From Acidobacteriota bacterium (GTDB lineage Bacteria; Acidobacteriota; Thermoanaerobaculia; Gp7-AA8): a stretch of 64,000 bases of DNA. Shown here in pieces: positions 5,636 through 62,184 of this stretch. A program made the position numbers and the translations under genes. Where the stretch lies: positions 124,001 through 188,000 of the forward strand of contig JAJPHC010000037.1 in NCBI GenBank assembly GCA_021325515.1. Direction: 5' to 3'. Under the pieces are notes generated by a model. It had not been told where the DNA came from. It saw nothing but the letters and a program-made list of their open reading frames with translations, and did not search any database. The first letter of the stretch is position 1, and each line of letters starts with the position of its first letter.

Positions 5636-5742
5636 GGATGGGATGGGACTATGGGACCTATGGGACCTATAGGACCTATGGGCGGACCGTTTCTCCCTAT
5701 AGGTCCCATAGGTCCCATAGGTCCCATAGTCCCATCCCATCC
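5636..5742. repeat. Inverted arrays of a 9-nt unit (ATGGGACCT type), between convergent genes
   Basis: This fills the whole gap between the transglycosylase stop (5631) and the stop of the convergent VWA gene (5744). The left arm (5636-5682) is tandem copies of ATGGGACCT after an outer GGATGGGATGGGACT. The right arm (5695-5742) is the same array in reverse complement. The outer roughly 36 positions pair perfectly, giving a hairpin of about 47 bp with a loop of about 12 nt in either transcript. One copy per arm carries ATAGG in place of ATGGG. A bidirectional transcription end or RNA-stabilising element is the simplest reading. Confidence 0.85.
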
Positions 5743-8908: not shown

Positions 8909-9979
8909 ATGACCTGCAAATTCTTCGTTCCCGGCCCGACCTGGATTCGTCCCGAGCTGCTTGCGGAGCTCGCGCGTCCTGTGATCGGACATCGCAGTGC
9001 GGAGTTCCGCGATCTCTACGCGGGCATCCTCGCGAATCTGAAGCCGCTGTTCGGCACGGCCGCCAGCACGTTCGTCGTGACATCCTCGGGAACGGGCGTG
9101 ATGCAGGCGGCGCTGGAGAATTGCGTTGCCCGCCGGGTGCTCGTCACGACGTGCGGGGCGTTCTCCGAGCGCTGGTTCTCGATCGCCGAGTCGCTGGGCC
9201 TCGAAGCCGACCGGCTCGACGCAGGCTGGGGCAACGCGATCGATCCGGAAGCGCTCGCCGATCATCTCGCGTCGCGCCGTGCTCACTACGACGCGGTCAC
9301 GATCACGCACAACGAAACATCGACGGGCGTGACGAACGATGTTGCTGCGCTCGCCGCGATCGTTCGCGAGGAATCGCCCGGCACGATGGTGCTCGTCGAC
9401 GCCGTCTCTTCGCTCGGCGGCATGCCGGTGCGATTCGACGAGTGGGGGCTCGACGTCTGTCTGGCTTCCGTGCAGAAAGGCCTCGCACTGCCGCCCGGCA
9501 TCACCGTCGCGGCGATGTCGAATGCGGCGATCGAGCGGGCGAAGAAGCATCCGTATCGCGGCACGTACTTCGATCTCGTGCAGTACAAGGAAAAGGCGGA
9601 TGAGGTGAGCGTCCCGTCGACGCCGTCGATCCCGCACTTCTACGCGCTCGCCGCGCAGCTCGGTCGCATCATCAACAGCGAGGGGCTCGACGCACGCTAT
9701 GAGAGGCATCGGCAGATGCGCGACATCACCCTGCAGCGCACCGCGAAATTTGCGAAGCATCCGGGCGACGCGGCGCACGCGTCCTGCACGGTGACGGCGT
9801 TGCAGCCGGTGAAGTCTCCGGACGCGATCCGCACCGAGATGAAGAAGCGCGGCTACACCCTCGGCGGCGGCTACGGCGAGTGGAAGGAGACGACGTTTCG
9901 CATCGGGCACATGGGTGACATCACCGTCGAAGATCTCAATGCCATGCTCGACGTTCTCGAGGAGGTTGCGCTTGGCTGA
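8909..9979 (+). CDS. Class V PLP aminotransferase (serine pathway)
   Basis: A 356-residue fold-type I aminotransferase of the alanine/serine-glyoxylate aminotransferase group. Landmarks: MTCKFFVPGPTWIRPE at the N-terminus, the GHRSAEF signature, a TSSGTGVMQAA cofactor-phosphate loop, VLVDAVSSLGGMPV with the pyridine-nitrogen Asp, and the Schiff-base lysine K190 in ASVQKGLALPPG. In context it most likely converts 3-phosphohydroxypyruvate to O-phosphoserine, replacing canonical SerC, which belongs to the same fold class but has different signatures. This substitution is known in some lineages; here it is inferred from its place between serB-like and serA genes. It overlaps serA by 8 bp. Confidence 0.85.
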   Translation: MTCKFFVPGPTWIRPELLAELARPVIGHRSAEFRDLYAGILANLKPLFGTAASTFVVTSSGTGVMQAALENCVARRVLVTTCGAFSERWFSIAESLGLEADRLDAGWGNAIDPEALADHLASRRAHYDAVTITHNETSTGVTNDVAALAAIVREESPGTMVLVDAVSSLGGMPVRFDEWGLDVCLASVQKGLALPPGITVAAMSNAAIERAKKHPYRGTYFDLVQYKEKADEVSVPSTPSIPHFYALAAQLGRIINSEGLDARYERHRQMRDITLQRTAKFAKHPGDAAHASCTVTALQPVKSPDAIRTEMKKRGYTLGGGYGEWKETTFRIGHMGDITVEDLNAMLDVLEEVALG

Positions 9980-20773: not shown

Positions 20774-23767
20774 ATGCTCACTCTCCTCGCCGCGGCCACT
20801 CTCTTCGCCGCATCCTCCGAACTGCGCCTCGATCGTGTTCAGGAGTCTCTCACCGGGCTCCATTTCCACTATCAGCAATATGTCGATGGCGTTCCTCTGC
20901 TCGATGGTGACAACACGAATGTGCCGGTGCCGCACGGCGCGATGCATGTGCGCGGCACACTCCGCTTCGTGCAGAAGTCGATCGTGCAGGAACGGCCGCT
21001 GGAGCGGTTTGCGGAGTTTCGCGACGAGAAGAGCGGAGAGCTGCTGCGCCGCGTTCCTCTGTTCTGGACCGCGAAGGGGCGCGTCTTCATCAGCAATCCC
21101 GTCACGCGCCTGAACGATCCGGCGCTGCAGGATCAGAACGACAGCGCGGCCGCGGTGCCGCTGCAGGCCTACAGCGAAGTGGATGTCGATCCGGCGCTCG
21201 GCGGACCGAACGTCGTGATCTCTGATCTCGAGCCGCCGGTGAATCCGGTGATCGATCCCGCGCAGCCGCTGCTGTTCGATCGCAGCCAGCCGCAGTTCGA
21301 GATGGTGAACGCCTGGTACCACATCGATCGCGCGCAGAAATATCTTCAGTCGCTCGGCTACACCGGTCCGCGCCGGCTCGTCGACTACGCGCTCCCCGTG
21401 GATCCGCACGGCGCGAATCAGGCTGACAACTCGTACTACATCGCAGGCGCAACGCCGGGACGCGGCGCGCTCTACTTCGGCGACGGCGGCACCGACGACG
21501 CGGAAGATCCCGACATCATGCTGCACGAGTTCATGCACGCCGTGCAGGACTGGATCGCGCCGGGCGCCTTCGGCGGCGAGTCGCGCGATCAGGCCCGCGC
21601 CCTCGGCGAAGGCTATGCGGATTACTGGTCCTTCTCGTCGACTTACGCAGACGCCGTGAGCAGCGGGCGCGATCCGTTCTGCATCGGCGACTGGGATGCG
21701 CGCTGCTGGCTCGACGACTCGTCCCAGAATTGCGGCTACGCGCCCGGGTCGGATTGTCTTCGCCGCGTCGACAGCACGAAGACCATGTCCGACTACCTCG
21801 ATGCCAATCAGAGCGGCATCGAGCACAAGAACGGCGAGATCTGGTCCTCCGCCTTGCGCGAGATCTTCCTGCGGCTGGGAACGAGATACGGAACCGATGC
21901 AGGCAAGCGGATGATGGACACGCTCGTGATCGAGTCGTACTTCGACACTCCGCCGTCGCCGACGTTTCGCGTGATGGCCGGGAAGCTGATCGACGCGGAC
22001 CGGCTGCTCTACGGCGGCTCGAATGCGACGGCGATCTGTTCCGCGATGACGCTGCGCTCGATTCTCACCGCTGCGGATTGCGATCGCGCACCTCGCGGAG
22101 AAGTGACGTACTTCCAGAGCGCGGATCAGAATCGCCCGCTTCCGGACAACGATCCGCAGGGCGTGCTCTCGACGCTGACGATCACGGACACACGCTCGAT
22201 CAACCGTTTGTTCGTGCACGTTCGCGCGTCGCATCCCGCGCGTGGCAATCTCCGCATCACGCTCGTCGCGCCCGACGGTACGACGGTGCTGCTCAAGCAG
22301 GAGTCGTTCGATATCACGCCTGATCTCGACGTCACGTACGGCCTCGACGCGCAGCCCGCACAGCCGCTCGATGTGCTTCAGGGACATCCGGCCGCAGGCA
22401 CCTGGCAGTTGCGCGTTGCCGATGTCCTCCCGACGGAGCGGGGGACATTTCTGTCGTGGTCTCTCGGATTCGAATTCGTCGGCGATGTGCCGGCGGCGTC
22501 GCGTCCAGTGACGGCGGGTGGCAAGCGGACGATCGCCGTCGCCGGCCATCTGAACGGCGCGAACGGCACGCGCTTCGTCAGCGACGTGAAGATCTTCAAC
22601 CGCGGCAGCACGCCGGCGAACGTGATGCTGATCTACACGCCGAGCGGCGCCAACGGCAACGACACGTTTGCCGCTGTGCGCGCGGTGATCGATGCGGGGC
22701 AGGTCGTCTCCTTCGATGACATCGTTGCGAATGAGATGCAGAGCGTCGGTTCCGGACAGCTCGAGATCGACGGAGATGTCGCGCAACTTGCGATCACGAG
22801 CCGCACCTACACGAGGTCTCCGGCGGGAACCTACGGCCAGACGATTCCAGCGCTGCCGGCCGGCGCAGCGGCATCACCGGCGGTGATCAACTTCGCGGAA
22901 GTGGACGATGACTTCCGGACGAACTTCGGATTTGCGGATGCAGGCGGAGCCGGCGGAAGTATGCACGTCGCGATCACGCGTCTGGGGAGCGATGCCGTCG
23001 TCTATGCATCCGACTTCACGATTCTTCCGTTCTCGCATCAGCAGATTTCGTTGACGGGAGTGCGCGGTGATTTCGTCATCACCATGACGCCATCCAACGG
23101 CGCGAAGATCCTCGGATACGCAAGCGTCGTCGACAATCGCACCGGCGATCCGATCTACGTACCCGCTCAGCCGATTGAGACCTCTGCGCACGACGCGATC
23201 GCGCCGGCAGTGAATGCACCGGGCGCGAATGGCACGCTCTGGAGGACGGATGTCCGAACGACGACAGCCCGGACCATTCTTCGTTTTCGTGACAGCGAGC
23301 GGGAAGCGGGAACGTACGTTGTGCGCGACGTGCTCGGGAGTCTGTTCCAGGCGGTGAATACGAGCGGCGCTCTGCTCGCGAAAATCCCGGCGGGAGAGAT
23401 CGTGACGACGCGGACCTGGACGGACTCCGCGAATGGTTCGTTCGGCCAGTACATCCCTTTCTTCGATGTTGAGAGCGGAACGCGAAGCGCCGATGTTCTG
23501 CAGGTCGAAGTCTCGCCGGCGTTCCGCACGAACATCGGGGTGATGGCGCCGCTGGGCTCGACCGCACATCTCACCGAGACCAACGCCGCGGGCGCGGTGC
23601 TCGCCAGCTACGACGTCGCGATCGCGCCGATGCAGCTCGTGCAGATCCCGATGACGGCGCCCGTGATCAACGGCCGCGTCCACATCGAGGCGACCGCCCC
23701 GGTGATTGCGTATGGGTCGCTGGTGGACAACAGAACGGGAGATCCGGCGTTTGTGGCAGGGGAGTGA
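20774..23767 (+). CDS. Secreted zinc metalloprotease with P-domain and tandem beta modules
   Basis: A 997-residue exported protein with a short signal sequence (MLTLLAAATLFAASS). A propeptide-like region (about 20-130) precedes a gluzincin-type catalytic domain: HEFMH with zinc ligands H251 and H255 and catalytic E252, and a probable third ligand E279 in LGEGYADYWS. This resembles M36 fungalysin-like enzymes. About residues 455-575 form a proprotein-convertase P-domain (LTITDTRSINRLFVHVRASH to GTWQLRVADVLP). The last 410 residues are two copies of a beta-sandwich module (about 585-800 and 810-997), each containing a YxSxVDNRTGDP motif near its end. It probably degrades external protein. The stop codon is fused to a tandem-repeat hairpin. 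Confidence 0.85.
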   Translation: MLTLLAAATLFAASSELRLDRVQESLTGLHFHYQQYVDGVPLLDGDNTNVPVPHGAMHVRGTLRFVQKSIVQERPLERFAEFRDEKSGELLRRVPLFWTAKGRVFISNPVTRLNDPALQDQNDSAAAVPLQAYSEVDVDPALGGPNVVISDLEPPVNPVIDPAQPLLFDRSQPQFEMVNAWYHIDRAQKYLQSLGYTGPRRLVDYALPVDPHGANQADNSYYIAGATPGRGALYFGDGGTDDAEDPDIMLHEFMHAVQDWIAPGAFGGESRDQARALGEGYADYWSFSSTYADAVSSGRDPFCIGDWDARCWLDDSSQNCGYAPGSDCLRRVDSTKTMSDYLDANQSGIEHKNGEIWSSALREIFLRLGTRYGTDAGKRMMDTLVIESYFDTPPSPTFRVMAGKLIDADRLLYGGSNATAICSAMTLRSILTAADCDRAPRGEVTYFQSADQNRPLPDNDPQGVLSTLTITDTRSINRLFVHVRASHPARGNLRITLVAPDGTTVLLKQESFDITPDLDVTYGLDAQPAQPLDVLQGHPAAGTWQLRVADVLPTERGTFLSWSLGFEFVGDVPAASRPVTAGGKRTIAVAGHLNGANGTRFVSDVKIFNRGSTPANVMLIYTPSGANGNDTFAAVRAVIDAGQVVSFDDIVANEMQSVGSGQLEIDGDVAQLAITSRTYTRSPAGTYGQTIPALPAGAAASPAVINFAEVDDDFRTNFGFADAGGAGGSMHVAITRLGSDAVVYASDFTILPFSHQQISLTGVRGDFVITMTPSNGAKILGYASVVDNRTGDPIYVPAQPIETSAHDAIAPAVNAPGANGTLWRTDVRTTTARTILRFRDSEREAGTYVVRDVLGSLFQAVNTSGALLAKIPAGEIVTTRTWTDSANGSFGQYIPFFDVESGTRSADVLQVEVSPAFRTNIGVMAPLGSTAHLTETNAAGAVLASYDVAIAPMQLVQIPMTAPVINGRVHIEATAPVIAYGSLVDNRTGDPAFVAGE

Positions 23768-23872
23768 TGGGACGATGGGACGGATGGGACGGATAGGACG
23801 GATGGGACACAGAGGTCACCGTGTTCTTCCCCATCCGTCCTATCCGTCCCATCCGTCCCATACGTCCCATCC
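23766..23872. repeat. Inverted arrays of a 9-nt unit (ATGGGACGG type)
   Basis: The first unit starts on the A of the protease stop codon (TGATGGGACG). The left arm (23766-23807) and right arm (23831-23872) are near-perfect reverse complements of about 42 bp, with a loop of about 23 nt. A variant unit ATAGGACGG is present at the same position in both arms, so pairing is kept. Downstream (23881-23902) is a separate 7-bp inverted repeat ATTTGCG/CGCAAAT, just before the next gene. Confidence 0.85.
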
Positions 23873-29466: not shown

Positions 29467-29592
29467 GGATGGGGGATGGGAGTATGGGACTATGGGACCT
29501 ATGGGACCTATGGGACCTATGGGTGGAGGCCGTTCTCCCCATAGGTCCCATAGGTCCTATAGGTCCCATCCGTCCCATCCTCCCCTCCATCC
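29467..29592. repeat. Inverted arrays of a 9-nt unit with adjacent T-run
   Basis: This begins on the base after the TGA of the TIGR02757-like gene. The left arm (29467-29528) holds ATGGGACCT copies, and the right arm (29535-29592) the reverse complement with one ATGGGACGG-type unit and one ATAGG variant. Against the left arm these give mostly G-U pairs. A T-run (29593-29598) follows, so a rightward transcript would show hairpin plus U-tract. About 135 nt of AT-richer leader then precede the kinase gene at 29735. Confidence 0.83.
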
Positions 29593-43703: not shown

Positions 43704-44387
43704 ATGTTGAACGAATTCTCCACCACGCGCGTTGCCATCCTCTGCTCGAAACGTGCTCCCGGTCTGGACCAGCTCCTGCGTCATCCGCAGCGGGACAAGC
43801 TGTTCGAGATCGCGTGTGTGATCTCGACCGAGCGGCGGTTCGACGATCACGATCGCATCGAGTTCGCCGGTGTTCCCGTGCTGCTTCATCCGATCGAGAG
43901 CTGGAAGTCGATGGATGTGCGCGCGGAGTACGACGCGATCACCGCCGAGATGCTCAAGGCGCTCAACGTCGATGTCGTGCTCCTGCTCGGATACGGTTAC
44001 GTTCTCACCGGCTCGATGCTGTCCGCATTTCCTGATCGCATTTTCGGTATTCACGACAGCGATCTGACGCTGCGCGATGTCGAGGGAAAGCGCCGTTACG
44101 TCGGTTTACACGCCACGCGCGACGCGATTGTCCAGGGCGAACGGGAAACGCGCAGCAGCCTCCACGTCGTGACGCCGGACGTCGCCTGCGGGCCGGTGTT
44201 GTTCCTCAGCGATCCCTATCCGGTGTCGCAGCTCGCCGGAGATGCCTGCCGCTGGGGCGCGGGCAACATCATCCGCGCCTACGCGTATGCACATCGTGAG
44301 TGGATGGTGTACGACTGCTGGGGCGATCTCGCGGCCCGCGTTCTCGAATACATCGCCGCCGGATATCGAATCGAGGCGAATGCATGA
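43704..44387 (+). CDS. Formyltransferase-like protein in a hyp cluster
   Basis: A 227-residue protein with the fold signature of formyltetrahydrofolate-dependent formyltransferases (PurN/Fmt/HypX N-domain): VVLLLGYGYVLTGSMLSAFP, then FGIHDSDL, YVGLHATRDAIVQGE and TPDVACGPVLFLSDPYPV. By eye, the catalytic His is kept but the Asn of the N-x-H triad is Gly (GIHDS) and the Asp of the LDGGP-type loop is Ala. The Fmt encoded at 61342 keeps both. HypX, which supplies the CO ligand aerobically, has such a domain plus a second domain that is missing here. Role unknown; its stop overlaps hypB by ATGA. Confidence 0.75.
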   Translation: MLNEFSTTRVAILCSKRAPGLDQLLRHPQRDKLFEIACVISTERRFDDHDRIEFAGVPVLLHPIESWKSMDVRAEYDAITAEMLKALNVDVVLLLGYGYVLTGSMLSAFPDRIFGIHDSDLTLRDVEGKRRYVGLHATRDAIVQGERETRSSLHVVTPDVACGPVLFLSDPYPVSQLAGDACRWGAGNIIRAYAYAHREWMVYDCWGDLAARVLEYIAAGYRIEANA

Positions 44388-45061
44388 GCCGTTACGATTG
44401 CGGATGGGATGCGGGAGTCGTCCCCATCAACGTTCGCCTCGCCGGGCACAATCGCGAGCACTTCCTCGACGACGGCCTGCTCGCCGTCAATCTGATGGGA
44501 TCACCCTGCGCCGGCAAGACGTCGATTCTGGAGGCGGTGGCGCGCGCGGCGAAAAATCCGCGCAGGATCGTAGCGATGACCGCGGAGCCCGCAAAGGAGA
44601 ACGATGCGAATCGGTTGATGGCTGCGGGCATTCGATCGAAGGCGATCGAGATGCGGCGGGCGGCTCCTCTCGATGCCGAGCTCGTGCAACGCACGCTGCA
44701 TCATCTCGACGCCGGCGACGCCGAGTATCTCTTCATCGAGAGCTGCGGCAATCTCCTCGGCCCCGTCTGCGACTTCGGTCAATCGCTCAACGTCGTCGCG
44801 TTGTCGATCACCGAGGGTGAGGAGAAAGCGCTGCATTTTCCGGAGATGTTCGAGAAGGCCGATCTCGTGCTGCTGACCAAGGCGGATCTGCTGCCGCATC
44901 TTCCGTTCATCAACGTGAAGGCGATCATGGATGCGCTGGCGCAGGCGATGCCTTCGCCGCGCGTGATTTCGATGTCGTGCCGCACGGGGCTCGGTGTCGA
45001 GGCGTTTCTTCGCTGGCTCGAGGCGGCGCGTGCGGCAGCGCTGGAGAAGTTGTTGGTTTGA
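44384..45061 (+). CDS. hypB: Hydrogenase nickel-incorporation GTPase HypB-like
   Basis: A 225-residue SIMIBI GTPase. The P-loop is NLMGSPCAGKTSILEA; other G-motifs and family blocks are TAEPAKENDANRL, FIESCGNLLGPV, LSITEGEEKALHFPEMF and VLLTKADLLPHL. HypB normally inserts nickel with HypA. There is no His-rich N-terminus. The G-domain Cys usually in the NLVCP motif is not in that place here (NLLGPVCD, with Cys three positions later), so metal binding may differ. The start at 44384 overlaps the upstream gene by ATGA. The stop codon A is also the first base of a 9-nt repeat array. Confidence 0.9.
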   Translation: MSRYDCGWDAGVVPINVRLAGHNREHFLDDGLLAVNLMGSPCAGKTSILEAVARAAKNPRRIVAMTAEPAKENDANRLMAAGIRSKAIEMRRAAPLDAELVQRTLHHLDAGDAEYLFIESCGNLLGPVCDFGQSLNVVALSITEGEEKALHFPEMFEKADLVLLTKADLLPHLPFINVKAIMDALAQAMPSPRVISMSCRTGLGVEAFLRWLEAARAAALEKLLV

Positions 45062-45112
45062 TGGGACGGATGGGACGGATGGGACCGATGGGACCGATGG
45101 GTGGAAACGGTC
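45061..45112. repeat. Single-arm array of the 9-nt unit
   Basis: The array begins on the A of the hypB stop (TGATGGGACGG) and runs to about 45103 as two ATGGGACGG-type and two ATGGGACCG-type units. No matching inverted arm follows; only a 6-bp stem GGACCG/CGGTCC can form before the convergent waaF stop at 45113. It looks like a half or decayed copy of the elements at 5636, 23766 and 29467. Confidence 0.8.
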
Positions 45113-59278: not shown

Positions 59279-60110
59279 GCAGCCTCTTCGCATCCTCCGT
59301 CGCCGCGGCCATCTCGACTTCGTACGCCGGATCGTTCGGCGCGGCGATCGCCGCCTTCAGCATCTGCGTCGCCTGCGGCTTCGTGTCGCTGTCGTTGTCG
59401 ACCATTGCCTCGGCGAGAAAAACGATCGTGATCTTGTTCTTCGGGTCGATCTTCAGCGACTCGTTGAGGTACTTCACCGCCTCCTTGTCCGAGGCCCAGC
59501 CGGTGACGAACGGCACGTGCGGCGTCTGATTGTGGAGGCGGCCGAGGACGCGAGCGGGTCCGCCGCCTTCGAGAGCGGGATTGATCAGCATGGCGATCGT
59601 CGACTCGCGCTTGATGCGATCGGCAGCTCCTTCGCGCACCGCCGCCATCTTGCCGTAGGCGAGTGCCCACTCGCCCCAGTTCACGGAATCCCAGAAGAAG
59701 ATCTCGCCGGCTCCCGGGATCGCGCGCGCTGAATCAGCGATCTGTTTCTCCGTCGCCTTGCTCACGGACGTGATGCCTTTCGCGCGCAACGCCTTGTCGA
59801 GCACCGCGAGCGCGGCATCGCCGGCCTGCTTCCCTTTCGCGTACACATCGCGCTTCTCGGCCGTGGAGGAAGCTGCGTAGGCACCTTTGAAGCGGAGTGC
59901 GCGCAGCAGTTTCCATCTCGCTTCGAGATCGTTCGGATTCGCGGCGGCGGCCTTCTCGTACGCTGCGATCGCCGCGTCGATGTGCGCGGCCTTCGCGTGG
60001 CCCGCGCTCGAGCCCTCCGCGCGAATCGACCACTGCTGATCCCCTTCCGCGATTTGTGCGCAGAGAGGCGTTGCGACGAGCAGAAGTGTTGCGGCCAGAA
60101 TTCGTTTCAT
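59259..60110 (-). CDS. Exported TPR protein
   Basis: A 283-residue protein with signal peptide MKRILAATLLLVATPLCA. TPR-like helices fill the rest: HIDAAIAAYEKAAAANPNDLE, then ALAYGKMAAVREGAADRI and EAVKYLNESLKIDPKNKITI, VEMAAATEDAKRLLKEWG. The overall shape is close to the TRAP-transporter T-component (TatT) proteins, which are periplasmic TPR rings, but no TRAP transporter genes are here. It is convergent with the PPTase gene and divergent from the chalcone-isomerase-like gene, with paired -10 boxes between. Confidence 0.7.
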   Translation of the reverse strand: MKRILAATLLLVATPLCAQIAEGDQQWSIRAEGSSAGHAKAAHIDAAIAAYEKAAAANPNDLEARWKLLRALRFKGAYAASSTAEKRDVYAKGKQAGDAALAVLDKALRAKGITSVSKATEKQIADSARAIPGAGEIFFWDSVNWGEWALAYGKMAAVREGAADRIKRESTIAMLINPALEGGGPARVLGRLHNQTPHVPFVTGWASDKEAVKYLNESLKIDPKNKITIVFLAEAMVDNDSDTKPQATQMLKAAIAAPNDPAYEVEMAAATEDAKRLLKEWGK

Positions 60111-60116
60111 GGTCGA

Positions 60117-60163
60117 AGTTTATCCGGTGTCGGCGCTGATCCCCGCTGCGCTCGGGATAAACT
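60117..60163. promoter_or_regulatory. Divergent promoter pair with identical -10 words
   Basis: GGATAAACT occurs at 60155-60163 on the + strand and at 60117-60125 on the - strand, facing away from each other. Leftwards, TAAACT is 6 nt before the TPR start (60110), implying a leaderless mRNA. Rightwards, it precedes a leader with a GAGGAGG ribosome site before 60185. Confidence 0.5.
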
Positions 60164-60184
60164 GTGAACATCAGAGGAGGTCTC

Positions 60185-60739
60185 ATGCATCGCACAGCCC
60201 GGACGTTGCTCGCATTCGCTTTCGCACTGCCGCTGATCGCCGCCACGATTGCCGACGTAAATCTCGACAACAGCGTTGCGGTCAACGGACAGAATCTCGT
60301 CTTCAACGGCGGAGGAATCCGCAAGAAGTTTTTCATCAAGGTCTACGTAGGCGCGCTCTATCTGCCGGCGAAGAACAACAACCCTGCGGCGATCATCGCC
60401 GCCGACGCGCCGCGCCGCCAGGTGATGCACTTCCTCTACAGCGTCTCGAAGGATCAGATGTGCGAGGCGTGGAGTGAAGGTCTCGAGGCGAACACGCCGA
60501 ACGCCTCCGCCGAAGTGAAGGGCTCGTTCAAGACGCTCTGCTCGCTGATGGAAGCAATCCCGAAAGGCAATCGCCTCATCCTGACCTATGTGCCGGGAAC
60601 CGGAACGACCGTCGAAGTGAACGGCAAGATGAAGGGAACTCTGCCGGGCAAAGCGACCGCCGACGCGATCCTCGCCACCTGGATCGGACCAAAGCCAGGC
60701 CCCGGAGAGGACTTCAAGGCTGCGGTACTGGGCAAGTAG
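60185..60739 (+). CDS. Chalcone isomerase-like exported protein
   Basis: A 184-residue protein with a signal peptide (MHRTARTLLAFAFALPLIAA) and a chalcone-isomerase-like fold (CHI domain): VNGQNLVFNGGGIRKKFF, then IKVYVGALYLPAKNNN, WSEGLEANTPNA and LILTYVPGTGTTVEVNGK, GTLPGKATADAILATWIG. Bacterial members are periplasmic and thought to bind lipids or fatty acids rather than isomerise flavonoids. The start at 60185 has GAGGAGG four bases upstream; an earlier in-frame ATG at 60164 overlaps the -10 region. It is followed by the 7-nt inverted repeat. Confidence 0.85.
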   Translation: MHRTARTLLAFAFALPLIAATIADVNLDNSVAVNGQNLVFNGGGIRKKFFIKVYVGALYLPAKNNNPAAIIAADAPRRQVMHFLYSVSKDQMCEAWSEGLEANTPNASAEVKGSFKTLCSLMEAIPKGNRLILTYVPGTGTTVEVNGKMKGTLPGKATADAILATWIGPKPGPGEDFKAAVLGK

Positions 60740-60766
60740 GTTCTGAACGTCGAGCGATGTGACTTC

Positions 60767-60949
60767 GGAACGATGAACGATGAACGATGAACGATGAACA
60801 GGGAACGATGAACGATGAACAGGGAACGATGAACGATGAACAAGGAACGTGGCCCTGGCCATGTTTCTCCCTCGTCCCATGTTCATCGTTCATCGTTCAT
60901 CGTTCATCGTTCATCGTTCTCCAACATCGTTCATCGTTCATCGTTCCCT
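60767..60949. repeat. Inverted arrays of a 7-nt unit (ATGAACG)
   Basis: It lies 27 nt after the chalcone-isomerase-like stop. The left arm (60767-60849) is ATGAACG units interspersed with a 14-nt double unit ending AGGGAACG. The right arm (60879-60949) is the reverse complement, with one interruption. Loop region about 30 nt. The arms could form an imperfect stem of roughly 70 bp. Since 7 nt repeats in all frames without stops, it creates false reading frames rich in FIVHRSS. Confidence 0.85.
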
Positions 60950-60977
60950 TGGCACGTCGGTTGAACTCAGCAATGGC

Positions 60978-61301
60978 GTGAAGAGGATCGCGCTGACGGC
61001 TGCTTTGCTCTCGTTGCTCTCCTGTCGAGGCGAGGCGCCGCCGCGCGATTATCAGAACAACCCACCTGCGATGACGCATCCGGTGACGAAGAAATCGGAT
61101 GCGCCGTCGCAGAACGGGATGCCCGGTCCTTCGCCTGAACCGAGCAGCGGCGCGGAAGGAACCTCAGCGCCCTACCAGCCGAAGAGTGCGACGTCGCCGA
61201 CGACGACGATGAAGGATCAGGCGCCGATCGACGATCCGCAGCACGCAACGCAGACGACCGCGACCGCATCGACCGGGACCGCTCTCGCGCAGAAGCCGTG
61301 A
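60978..61301 (+). CDS. Small Ser/Thr/Pro-rich lipoprotein
   Basis: A 107-residue protein from GTG 60978. The opening VKRIALTAALLSLLSC gives a lipoprotein signal with lipobox LLSC, so the mature protein is membrane-anchored. The remainder is low-complexity (Pro, Ser, Thr, Gln, Ala; for example QPKSATSPTTTMKDQAPID) and appears disordered. Upstream in-frame codons run into the 7-nt repeat and are not used here. No function can be assigned. Confidence 0.6.
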   Translation: MKRIALTAALLSLLSCRGEAPPRDYQNNPPAMTHPVTKKSDAPSQNGMPGPSPEPSSGAEGTSAPYQPKSATSPTTTMKDQAPIDDPQHATQTTATASTGTALAQKP

Positions 61302-61305
61302 GGGG

Positions 61306-61332
61306 TTGCAACCGCAAATCCCCACATACAAT
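61306..61332 (+). promoter_or_regulatory. Possible promoter for fmt
   Basis: TTGCAA (61306-61311), a 15-bp spacer and TACAAT (61327-61332) precede the TTG start of fmt (61342) by 9 nt, again implying a leaderless transcript. Confidence 0.4.
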
Positions 61333-61341
61333 GCACTCACT

Positions 61342-62184
61342 TTGCGCATCGTCTTTCTCGGCACGCCCGGCTTTGCAGTTCCCACGTTGGAGGCGCTCGC
61401 GCGCGAGCATGAGATCGCTCTGGTTGTCGCGCAGCCCGACAAGCCTGCCGGCCGCGGGATGAAGATGCATGCGCCGGCCGTCGCGCAAAAGGCGAAGGAG
61501 CTCGGCCTGACGCTCATTCAGCCGCCGAAGATTCGCGAAGGACTCGACGCGATTCGTGATGCGAAGCCGGACATCGGGATCGTCGTCGCCTACGGAAAAA
61601 TTCTGCCGAAGGCACTCCTCGACATTCCGCGGCAGGGCTTCCTCAACATCCACGGCTCCATCCTGCCGAAGTACCGCGGCGCCGCGCCGATCCAGCGTGC
61701 CATCGAACATGGCGAGATCGAAACCGGCGTCACGATCATGCGCGTCGATGAAGAGCTCGATCATGGCGCGATCATCGCCATCGAGAAGACGCCGATCGGT
61801 CCCGATGAACGAACGCCGTCGCTCGCCGACCGTCTCTCGGTGATCGGCGCAGAGGCGCTGCTGAAAACGTTGCGCGCTTCATGGACGGAGACGGAACAGG
61901 ACCACGCGGCTGCGACGTTCGCGCCGAAGATCGAGAAGAGCGAGTCGCAGATCTCGTGGAGCGAGCCCGCTCGCCGGATCTACGACAAGTTCCGCGCGTT
62001 CTATCCCTGGCCGGGTGTGAACGCCGGCGAGCTGAAGCTGATCGAGCTCGCGCGCGCGGAGAGCACGGAGGAAGGCGTCCTCGTGGAGTGTGGCGAAGGC
62101 GCATTGCGCGTGATCTCCGTGCAGCGGCCAGGAAAAGCGCCGGTACGCGCGGCCGATTACATCCGCGGCGGCGGCACGTTGTGA
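61342..62184 (+). CDS. fmt: Methionyl-tRNA formyltransferase
   Basis: A 280-residue enzyme that formylates initiator Met-tRNA using 10-formyl-THF. The TTG at 61342 is chosen since it directly precedes RIVFLGTPGFAVPTLEALA, the conserved start. Catalytic residues are intact: Asn and His in FLNIHGSILPKYRGAAPIQ and Asp in RVDEELDHGAI. The C-terminal OB-like domain follows (IYDKFRAFYPWPGV, then GEGALRVISVQ). It is a little shorter than the E. coli protein (315). The stop overlaps rsmB by GTGA, the common fmt-rsmB arrangement. Confidence 0.95.
   Translation: MRIVFLGTPGFAVPTLEALAREHEIALVVAQPDKPAGRGMKMHAPAVAQKAKELGLTLIQPPKIREGLDAIRDAKPDIGIVVAYGKILPKALLDIPRQGFLNIHGSILPKYRGAAPIQRAIEHGEIETGVTIMRVDEELDHGAIIAIEKTPIGPDERTPSLADRLSVIGAEALLKTLRASWTETEQDHAAATFAPKIEKSESQISWSEPARRIYDKFRAFYPWPGVNAGELKLIELARAESTEEGVLVECGEGALRVISVQRPGKAPVRAADYIRGGGTL

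Follow-up and report, generated by a model that had tools for sequence, protein, structure and literature searches.

STRR heptanucleotide repeats of heterocystous cyanobacteria are dispersed intergenic tandem heptamers described as direct arrays, and we know of no inverted-pair architecture among them. Intergenic heptamer arrays have so far been reported piecemeal, as one unit in one genus, and have been given unit-specific explanations such as G-quadruplexes. In Xanthomonas, arrays of the heptamer GGGAATC form 70 and 75 convergent inverted pairs in two genomes (Rehm et al. 2015, PMC4692102); for this genus, heptamer arrays paired at the ends of genes are already on record. These arrays are intergenic, most commonly contain four units with always one array per strand, lie near the upstream ORF and its stop, are underrepresented between divergent genes, and differ in length and sequence between close relatives (PMC4692102). 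Heptamer arrays of the unit TAACTGA were described in Beggiatoaceae, Cyanobacteria and Bacteroidetes (MacGregor 2015, PMC4679880). The REP/BIME elements associated with RAYT are dispersed palindromes located 3' of genes where neighboring ORFs are convergent or unidirectional, and occur in inverted pairs (Di Nocera et al. 2013, PMC3733652).

We analyzed inverted tandem arrays (ITAs), each composed of a tandem array, a center and a reverse-complement array, starting from a 64-kb window of the genome of an Acidobacteriota soil bacterium; no report of ITAs in this phylum was found in the literature searched. The first-pass annotation had described opposed tandem arrays of the unit ATGAACG at 60767-60949 following a + strand stop codon, and this arrangement is borne out. 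The upstream gene (60164-60739, + strand) encodes a chalcone isomerase-like protein (Chalcone_3; Pfam PF16036, E-value 2.1e-43) and ends with a TAG codon at 60737-60739. After a gap of 28 nt, the left arm, (GAACGAT)n with 11.7 copies, occupies 60768-60849 (+ strand; TRF and sequence). It is followed by a 31-nt hairpin center (60850-60880), which is not common to other ITAs of the GATGAAC family, and by the right arm, (GTTCATC)n with 9.6 copies, at 60881-60946 (- strand; TRF, sequence and fold). GTTCATC is the reverse complement of the left unit, and the right arm is broken by CTCCAAC. In place of the 14-nt double units proposed earlier, TRF detected a 21-nt higher-order repeat of three 7-mers (3.9 copies, 93% match), which is confined to the left arm. 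The RNA fold of the + strand has an energy of -129.6 kcal/mol (z = -12.9), and none of 200 shuffled sequences was equally stable.

Downstream of the ITA, translation reveals a probable small lipoprotein gene (60978-61301, + strand, 107 aa) with a GTG start and the signal ...LLSLLSC; a Pfam search with its longer frame gave no match. The start of this gene is located 31 nt past the right arm, so the short space between the two genes is taken up for the most part by the ITA. The gene context further includes methionyl-tRNA formyltransferase (61342-62184, + strand; PF00551/PF02911), with its start taken from a simple gene model. No Rfam family was matched by covariance models at the gathering score within 60101-61400. 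In relatives, no ITA is present at the equivalent place by the chalcone gene, the sequences there being too diverged to inform on this site.

Other ITAs in the window, detected by TRF and the ITA scan, belong to a 9-nt family and are located at 5643-5735 (ATGGGACCT / TCCCATAGG), 23766-23872 (GATGGGACG / CCCATCCGT) and 29483-29578 (TATGGGACC / CCCATAGGT). The query unit is unrelated to these 9-nt ATGGGACC arrays, in agreement with the first-pass annotation. The 9-nt family is also represented by a lone array, (GATGGGACC)n, at 45060-45101 (+ strand) immediately past the stop of the ORF 44300-45061; no partner of this array was detected, and it is a candidate half-ITA.

The genome scan for inverted arrays that had been proposed for this locus was run on stretches totaling 1.594 Mb, or 30% of the 5.38-Mb genome, using TRF for array detection and a simple codon model for gene calling. 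It revealed 104 ITAs near stop codons, classified into at least ten unrelated families with units of 7, 8 or 9 nt; some of the sampled contigs were picked for holding the heptamer, so ITA densities are approximate. The periods of intergenic arrays are 7 (143 arrays), 8 (68) and 9 nt (80), while any other length is represented by at most five arrays (TRF). The largest family is the 9-nt GATGGGACG/TATGGGACC (34 loci), followed by AGTGANG (18 loci), GATGAAC and CGCGGGCT (14 loci each), AAATTGA (9 loci), GGGCGCT (6 loci), and AGTGCTG and GGGGCGCT (3 loci each); further units were found at one locus each. Neighboring arrays form 104 inverted loci versus 17 direct pairs. Each unit family keeps one strand on the left in all 104 ITAs, and the left arm is the purine-richer one in all of them. 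Four is the commonest number of units per arm (88 of 208 arms), with the longest arms reaching 17 copies; the median copy number is 4.6 in the 9-mer, 4.7 in the GATGAAC and 4.6 in the AAATTGA family. In a typical ITA, a unit of 7-9 nt is repeated about four to five times, followed by a short center specific to the locus and by the reverse-complement array.

The ATGAACG array is not unique in its genome, whereas uniqueness is what the first-pass annotation had named as fatal to its reading: the exact 22-mer GAACGATGAACGATGAACGATG has 55 matches in the 5.38-Mb sequence (27 on the forward and 28 on the reverse strand), which fall into about 20 distinct loci, and the reversed-pattern control gave 0 matches across the whole genome. 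GATGAAC arrays are also located at draft contig ends, namely the end of C19 (59978-60006 of 60085) and the start of C44 (74-163), as is expected if such arrays break the assembly. In the AGTGANG ITAs (e.g., C61:24246, C38:68447 and C2:248134 of the query genome), the variable unit position often mispairs between arms, with left C or T opposite right T, or left A opposite right A; thus, two arm 'flavors' are joined in one ITA.

Like the paired arrays of Xanthomonas, ITAs include intergenic tandem heptamers of about four units, to which 8- and 9-mers are added, and form convergent inverted pairs near stop codons. Unlike the single, G-quadruplex-capable GGGNATC family of that genus, ITAs use at least ten unrelated 7-, 8- and 9-nt units per genome, among which GATGAAC, AAATTGA and AGTGANG lack GGG. 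The ITA units resemble STRR repeats as dispersed intergenic tandem heptamers but differ from them in forming inverted pairs. ITAs share the intergenic location of heptamers and the patchy occurrence across phyla with the TAACTGA arrays (PMC4679880), whereas the latter are mostly direct repeats just 5' of starts and ITAs are inverted pairs just past stops. Both ITAs and REP/BIME are dispersed palindromes downstream of genes; however, ITAs are characterized by tandem-unit stems and unconserved centers, and possess neither the GTAG/CGTC tag nor, in the sampled contigs, an adjoining RAYT gene. The host bacterium combines at least ten unrelated units in one inverted, gene-end, approximately four-unit format. 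This moves the question from the role of a single repeat to the process that builds or rewrites such hairpins, and the sites reported here are comparable ones on which tests can be made.

The location of ITAs at gene ends, as claimed in the first-pass annotation, is a strong tendency but not a rule: among the 99 ITAs that could be placed, 17 are flanked by divergent genes. In tandem gene pairs, the ITA is nearer to the stop than to the start in a ratio of 43:13 (p = 7e-5), with median distances of 4 and 25 nt, respectively; in convergent regions, the median distance from the nearer stop is 2 nt. Stop-side distances are negative in 25% of cases, i.e., the array overlaps the gene end. Among intergenic regions of at least 60 nt, the share with an ITA is 27% where the genes converge, 17% where they are in tandem and 11% where they diverge. 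When the ITA is subtracted, the ITA-bearing regions have a median length of 46 nt, compared with 45 nt for ordinary regions. An apparent exclusion of ordinary hairpins from the intergenic regions of ITAs was significant at first and vanished after length matching.

Folding was applied to the 97 ITAs with a length of up to 220 nt, and each of them gives a strong predicted RNA hairpin on both strands, with a median of about -60 kcal/mol. As with intrinsic terminators, an ITA provides a stable hairpin just past the stop, and its purine-rich left side is shared with the ordinary gene-end hairpins of the same genome, which are purine-left in a ratio of 98:33 near stops (53:52 for stems in coding sequence). 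Unlike intrinsic terminators, ITAs have very long, periodic stems and no T-tract past the arms, the mean being 1.9 T in 8 nt, with five or more T in 1.4% of cases.

In the 9-mer and GATGAAC families, the two arms of one locus are more alike than arms of different loci (p = 0.0002 and p = 0.005, respectively), while the AGTGANG, CGCGGGCT and GGGCGCT families show no such mirroring between the arms of a locus. The centers within a family are no more alike than shuffled sequences, or barely so, in every family. They are unrelated in the 7- and 8-mer families, the exceptions being a weak signal in the 9-mers and a value within scatter for AAATTGA, whose comparison includes two loci that represent a local duplication. 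At their outer edges, the arms show a preferred, non-random phase. Loci thus have arms in common while differing in their centers, which fits poorly with a simple copy-paste element.

The 22-mer GAACGATGAACGATGAACGATG was also found in the genomes of seven other relatives, all of the host's family, and across Acidobacteria, Planctomycetota, Bacteroidota, Chloroflexi, Betaproteobacteria, Cyanobacteria and other groups, often as an inverted pair. In 53 of 58 inverted pairs from the cross-phylum search, the GATGAAC strand is on the left. In the sampled stretches of relatives, ITA density is about 115-120 per Mb in G011 and G009 (about 115 per Mb in G011), 100 per Mb in G007, and 15-40 per Mb in G015, G008 and G004 (30 per Mb in G004). 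Three genomes outside the family, each sampled over 34-60 kb, yielded no ITAs. The unit repertoire differs between genera of the family: it includes GGATTTT, GGACCTT and CATTCAA in G011, and CTGAGTC, GGTTGCGA and AGCGCGT in G009. Among the relatives, the 9-mer is present in two only, and AAATTGA in two. A universal purine-left rule, which holds in the query genome (104/104), fails in G011, where GGATTTT and GGACCTT are not purine-rich on the left; the rule that is left is a (nearly) fixed strand order within each family. On contig C363 of G007, about 18 GATGAAC units form a perfect array at 9491-9617, with an opposed short array about 360 nt away.

We further compared orthologous gene ends at six ITA sites of G009 with those of the congeneric genome G016 (75-87% identity); automatic mapping of the orthologous intergenic regions missed several sites, which were read by eye. 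At three of the six sites, G016 carries a different unit (GATTTAT in G009 vs AGTCCTG in G016, AGTACTG vs AGCGAGT, and AGTCCTG vs GCGTGTA/AGCGAGT); at one site the same family is present in decayed form, and two sites have no array. At site 1 in G016, the TGA stop codon of the gene is supplied by the array itself. Within aligned stretches, the G016 arrays coincide with the ITA sites of G009, which for so few sites is suggestive of site persistence, not proof of it. The different units at orthologous sites go beyond what is described for the Xanthomonas arrays.

The first-pass annotation had argued for a process that makes inverted arrays at gene ends, rather than one mobile sequence family. The many units and the unit swaps between G009 and G016 agree with this view; however, each unit is dispersed and strand-fixed. 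Because the families are dispersed, fixed in strand order, and common to loci and phyla, a unit does not arise anew at every site. At the same time, at least ten families near stops, the genus-specific repertoires and the G009/G016 swaps point to a persistent architecture with replaceable sequence.

We tentatively propose, with a probability of about 0.45, that a gene-end ITA is an RNA 3'-end hairpin, with slippage and template switching renewing its arms and with arm sequences being copied between loci. The hairpin would act on either strand as a bidirectional terminator without a U-tract or as an mRNA 3' stabilizer; this putative function is suggested by its position, the hairpin strength on both strands and the polarity common to ordinary gene-end hairpins. 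Replication slippage would keep the arms young, as the copy-number variation, the one-arm 21-nt repeat and the arms of up to 17 copies suggest. Template switching or short-tract conversion, considered here as a process that copies arms without centers and is able to swap the unit at a site, would match the arms within one hairpin and spread them between loci, so that an arm word may be copied without its center and one word may displace another at the same gene end. The missing T-tract counts against termination, as do the 17 ITAs located between divergent genes, since a terminator would serve no evident purpose there. The non-mirrored arms of AGTGANG, GGGCGCT and CGCGGGCT argue against arm-to-arm copying in those families. 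The fixed strand order per family is not accounted for by slippage, template switching or conversion; it is compatible with selection for RNA hairpin polarity or with a directional writing process.

A dedicated array-writing activity, e.g., a hypothetical telomerase-like templated polymerase, might create ITAs by extending both 3' ends inward with a 7-9 nt word where gene-end hairpins or breaks occur, with a word that changes between lineages and overwrites orthologous ends. It would fit the fact that the same strand always points inward in both arms, the 7-9 nt limit, the shared arms without shared centers and the preferred outer phase, although we regard it as a long shot. A possible but unlikely explanation is that ITAs are small palindromic mobile elements of REP/MITE type with their own tandem-unit stems, which a transposase such as RAYT would disperse and which would be tolerated in the vicinity of stops. 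The dispersal of every family among many loci, its fixed strand order and outer phase, the Y1 transposase genes (PF01797) in 17 of 18 family genomes (seven in the query genome), the slightly conserved center of the 9-nt family and the ordinary, insertion-like intergenic length after subtraction of the ITA are all in line with such elements. However, the centers of 7- and 8-mer families are not conserved, unlike those of whole-element copies, and GTAG and CGTC are found at 6 and 0 of 208 ITA edges, compared with 9 and 71 of 1040 in the control. RAYT-type genes in the sampled contigs (C61:122123, C40:246911 and C11:18878) have no ITA within 1.5 kb, the nearest being about 1.6 kb away, and RAYT numbers do not follow ITA density (3 matches in G011 with about 115 ITAs per Mb, 15 matches in G004 with 30 per Mb). 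This explanation also needs at least ten element families of identical architecture, and orthologous sites change family.

Rather improbable, in our view, is a role as structural or protein-binding elements at the DNA level, such as cruciforms, four-unit binding arrays or elements of chromosome organization, with stop proximity reflecting mere tolerance. Although about four units are preferred across unrelated 7- and 9-nt units, ITAs also occur between divergent genes and both arms are fixed in inward orientation, the unit sequences are unrelated across families, so one sequence-specific protein could not read them all, and placement strongly favors stops over starts. Pure local slippage with quasi-palindrome correction, by which hairpins grow from their own local sequence with no dispersal, is disfavored as the sole cause and seems improbable, despite the signs of slippage at the query locus and although the order of variants is mirrored between the arms in the 9-mer and GATGAAC families. 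Under local growth, each locus would be expected to have its own unit and strand order would be random, whereas the observed order is 104:0 and units recur at unrelated loci, e.g., the AT-rich AAATTGA, whose arms have a near-constant 4.6 copies at 9 loci although the genome is GC-rich. An assembly artefact or chance has a negligible probability: two draft contigs end near such arrays, but the 22-mer has 55 matches against 0 for its control, the arrangement is repeated in many independently assembled genomes, and most arrays are short enough (commonest 4 units, about 30-40 nt) to lie within one read.

Several other ideas were rejected. Stop codons inside the units are not a general reason for ITAs, being absent from the 9-mers and several 7-mers. 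A G-quadruplex basis for the four-unit preference is not general, since several units unable to form a G-quadruplex, such as AAATTGA and GATGAAC, show the four-unit mode too. Spread by phages was dismissed because the 22-mer is present in only 5 of 2.9 million viral contigs.

Other dispersed palindromes were observed in these genomes. In the query genome, C40:201377 and C40:75043 are near-identical perfect palindromes with 29-31 bp stems (GGGGGTCACACCTGGAAAATCAACTTAACG...), which are not tandem and are probably parts of a mobile element. Long perfect palindromes of the form GACAGGCG..CGCCTGTC, with stems of 18-27 bp, are dispersed at C40:139993, C16:50160, C50:61072 and C16:52120. Hairpins of the form CTCTCCCCGC..GCGGGGAGAG, located at C11:122196, C61:143453, C61:82529 and C40:274963, are pyrimidine-left, and their polarity is opposite to that of ITAs. 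Finally, G016 contains two more dispersed families of about 75-80 nt with dozens of copies, recognized as matches to L277:17533-17611 and L280:17115-17188; the former is palindromic, as it matches both strands of G016.
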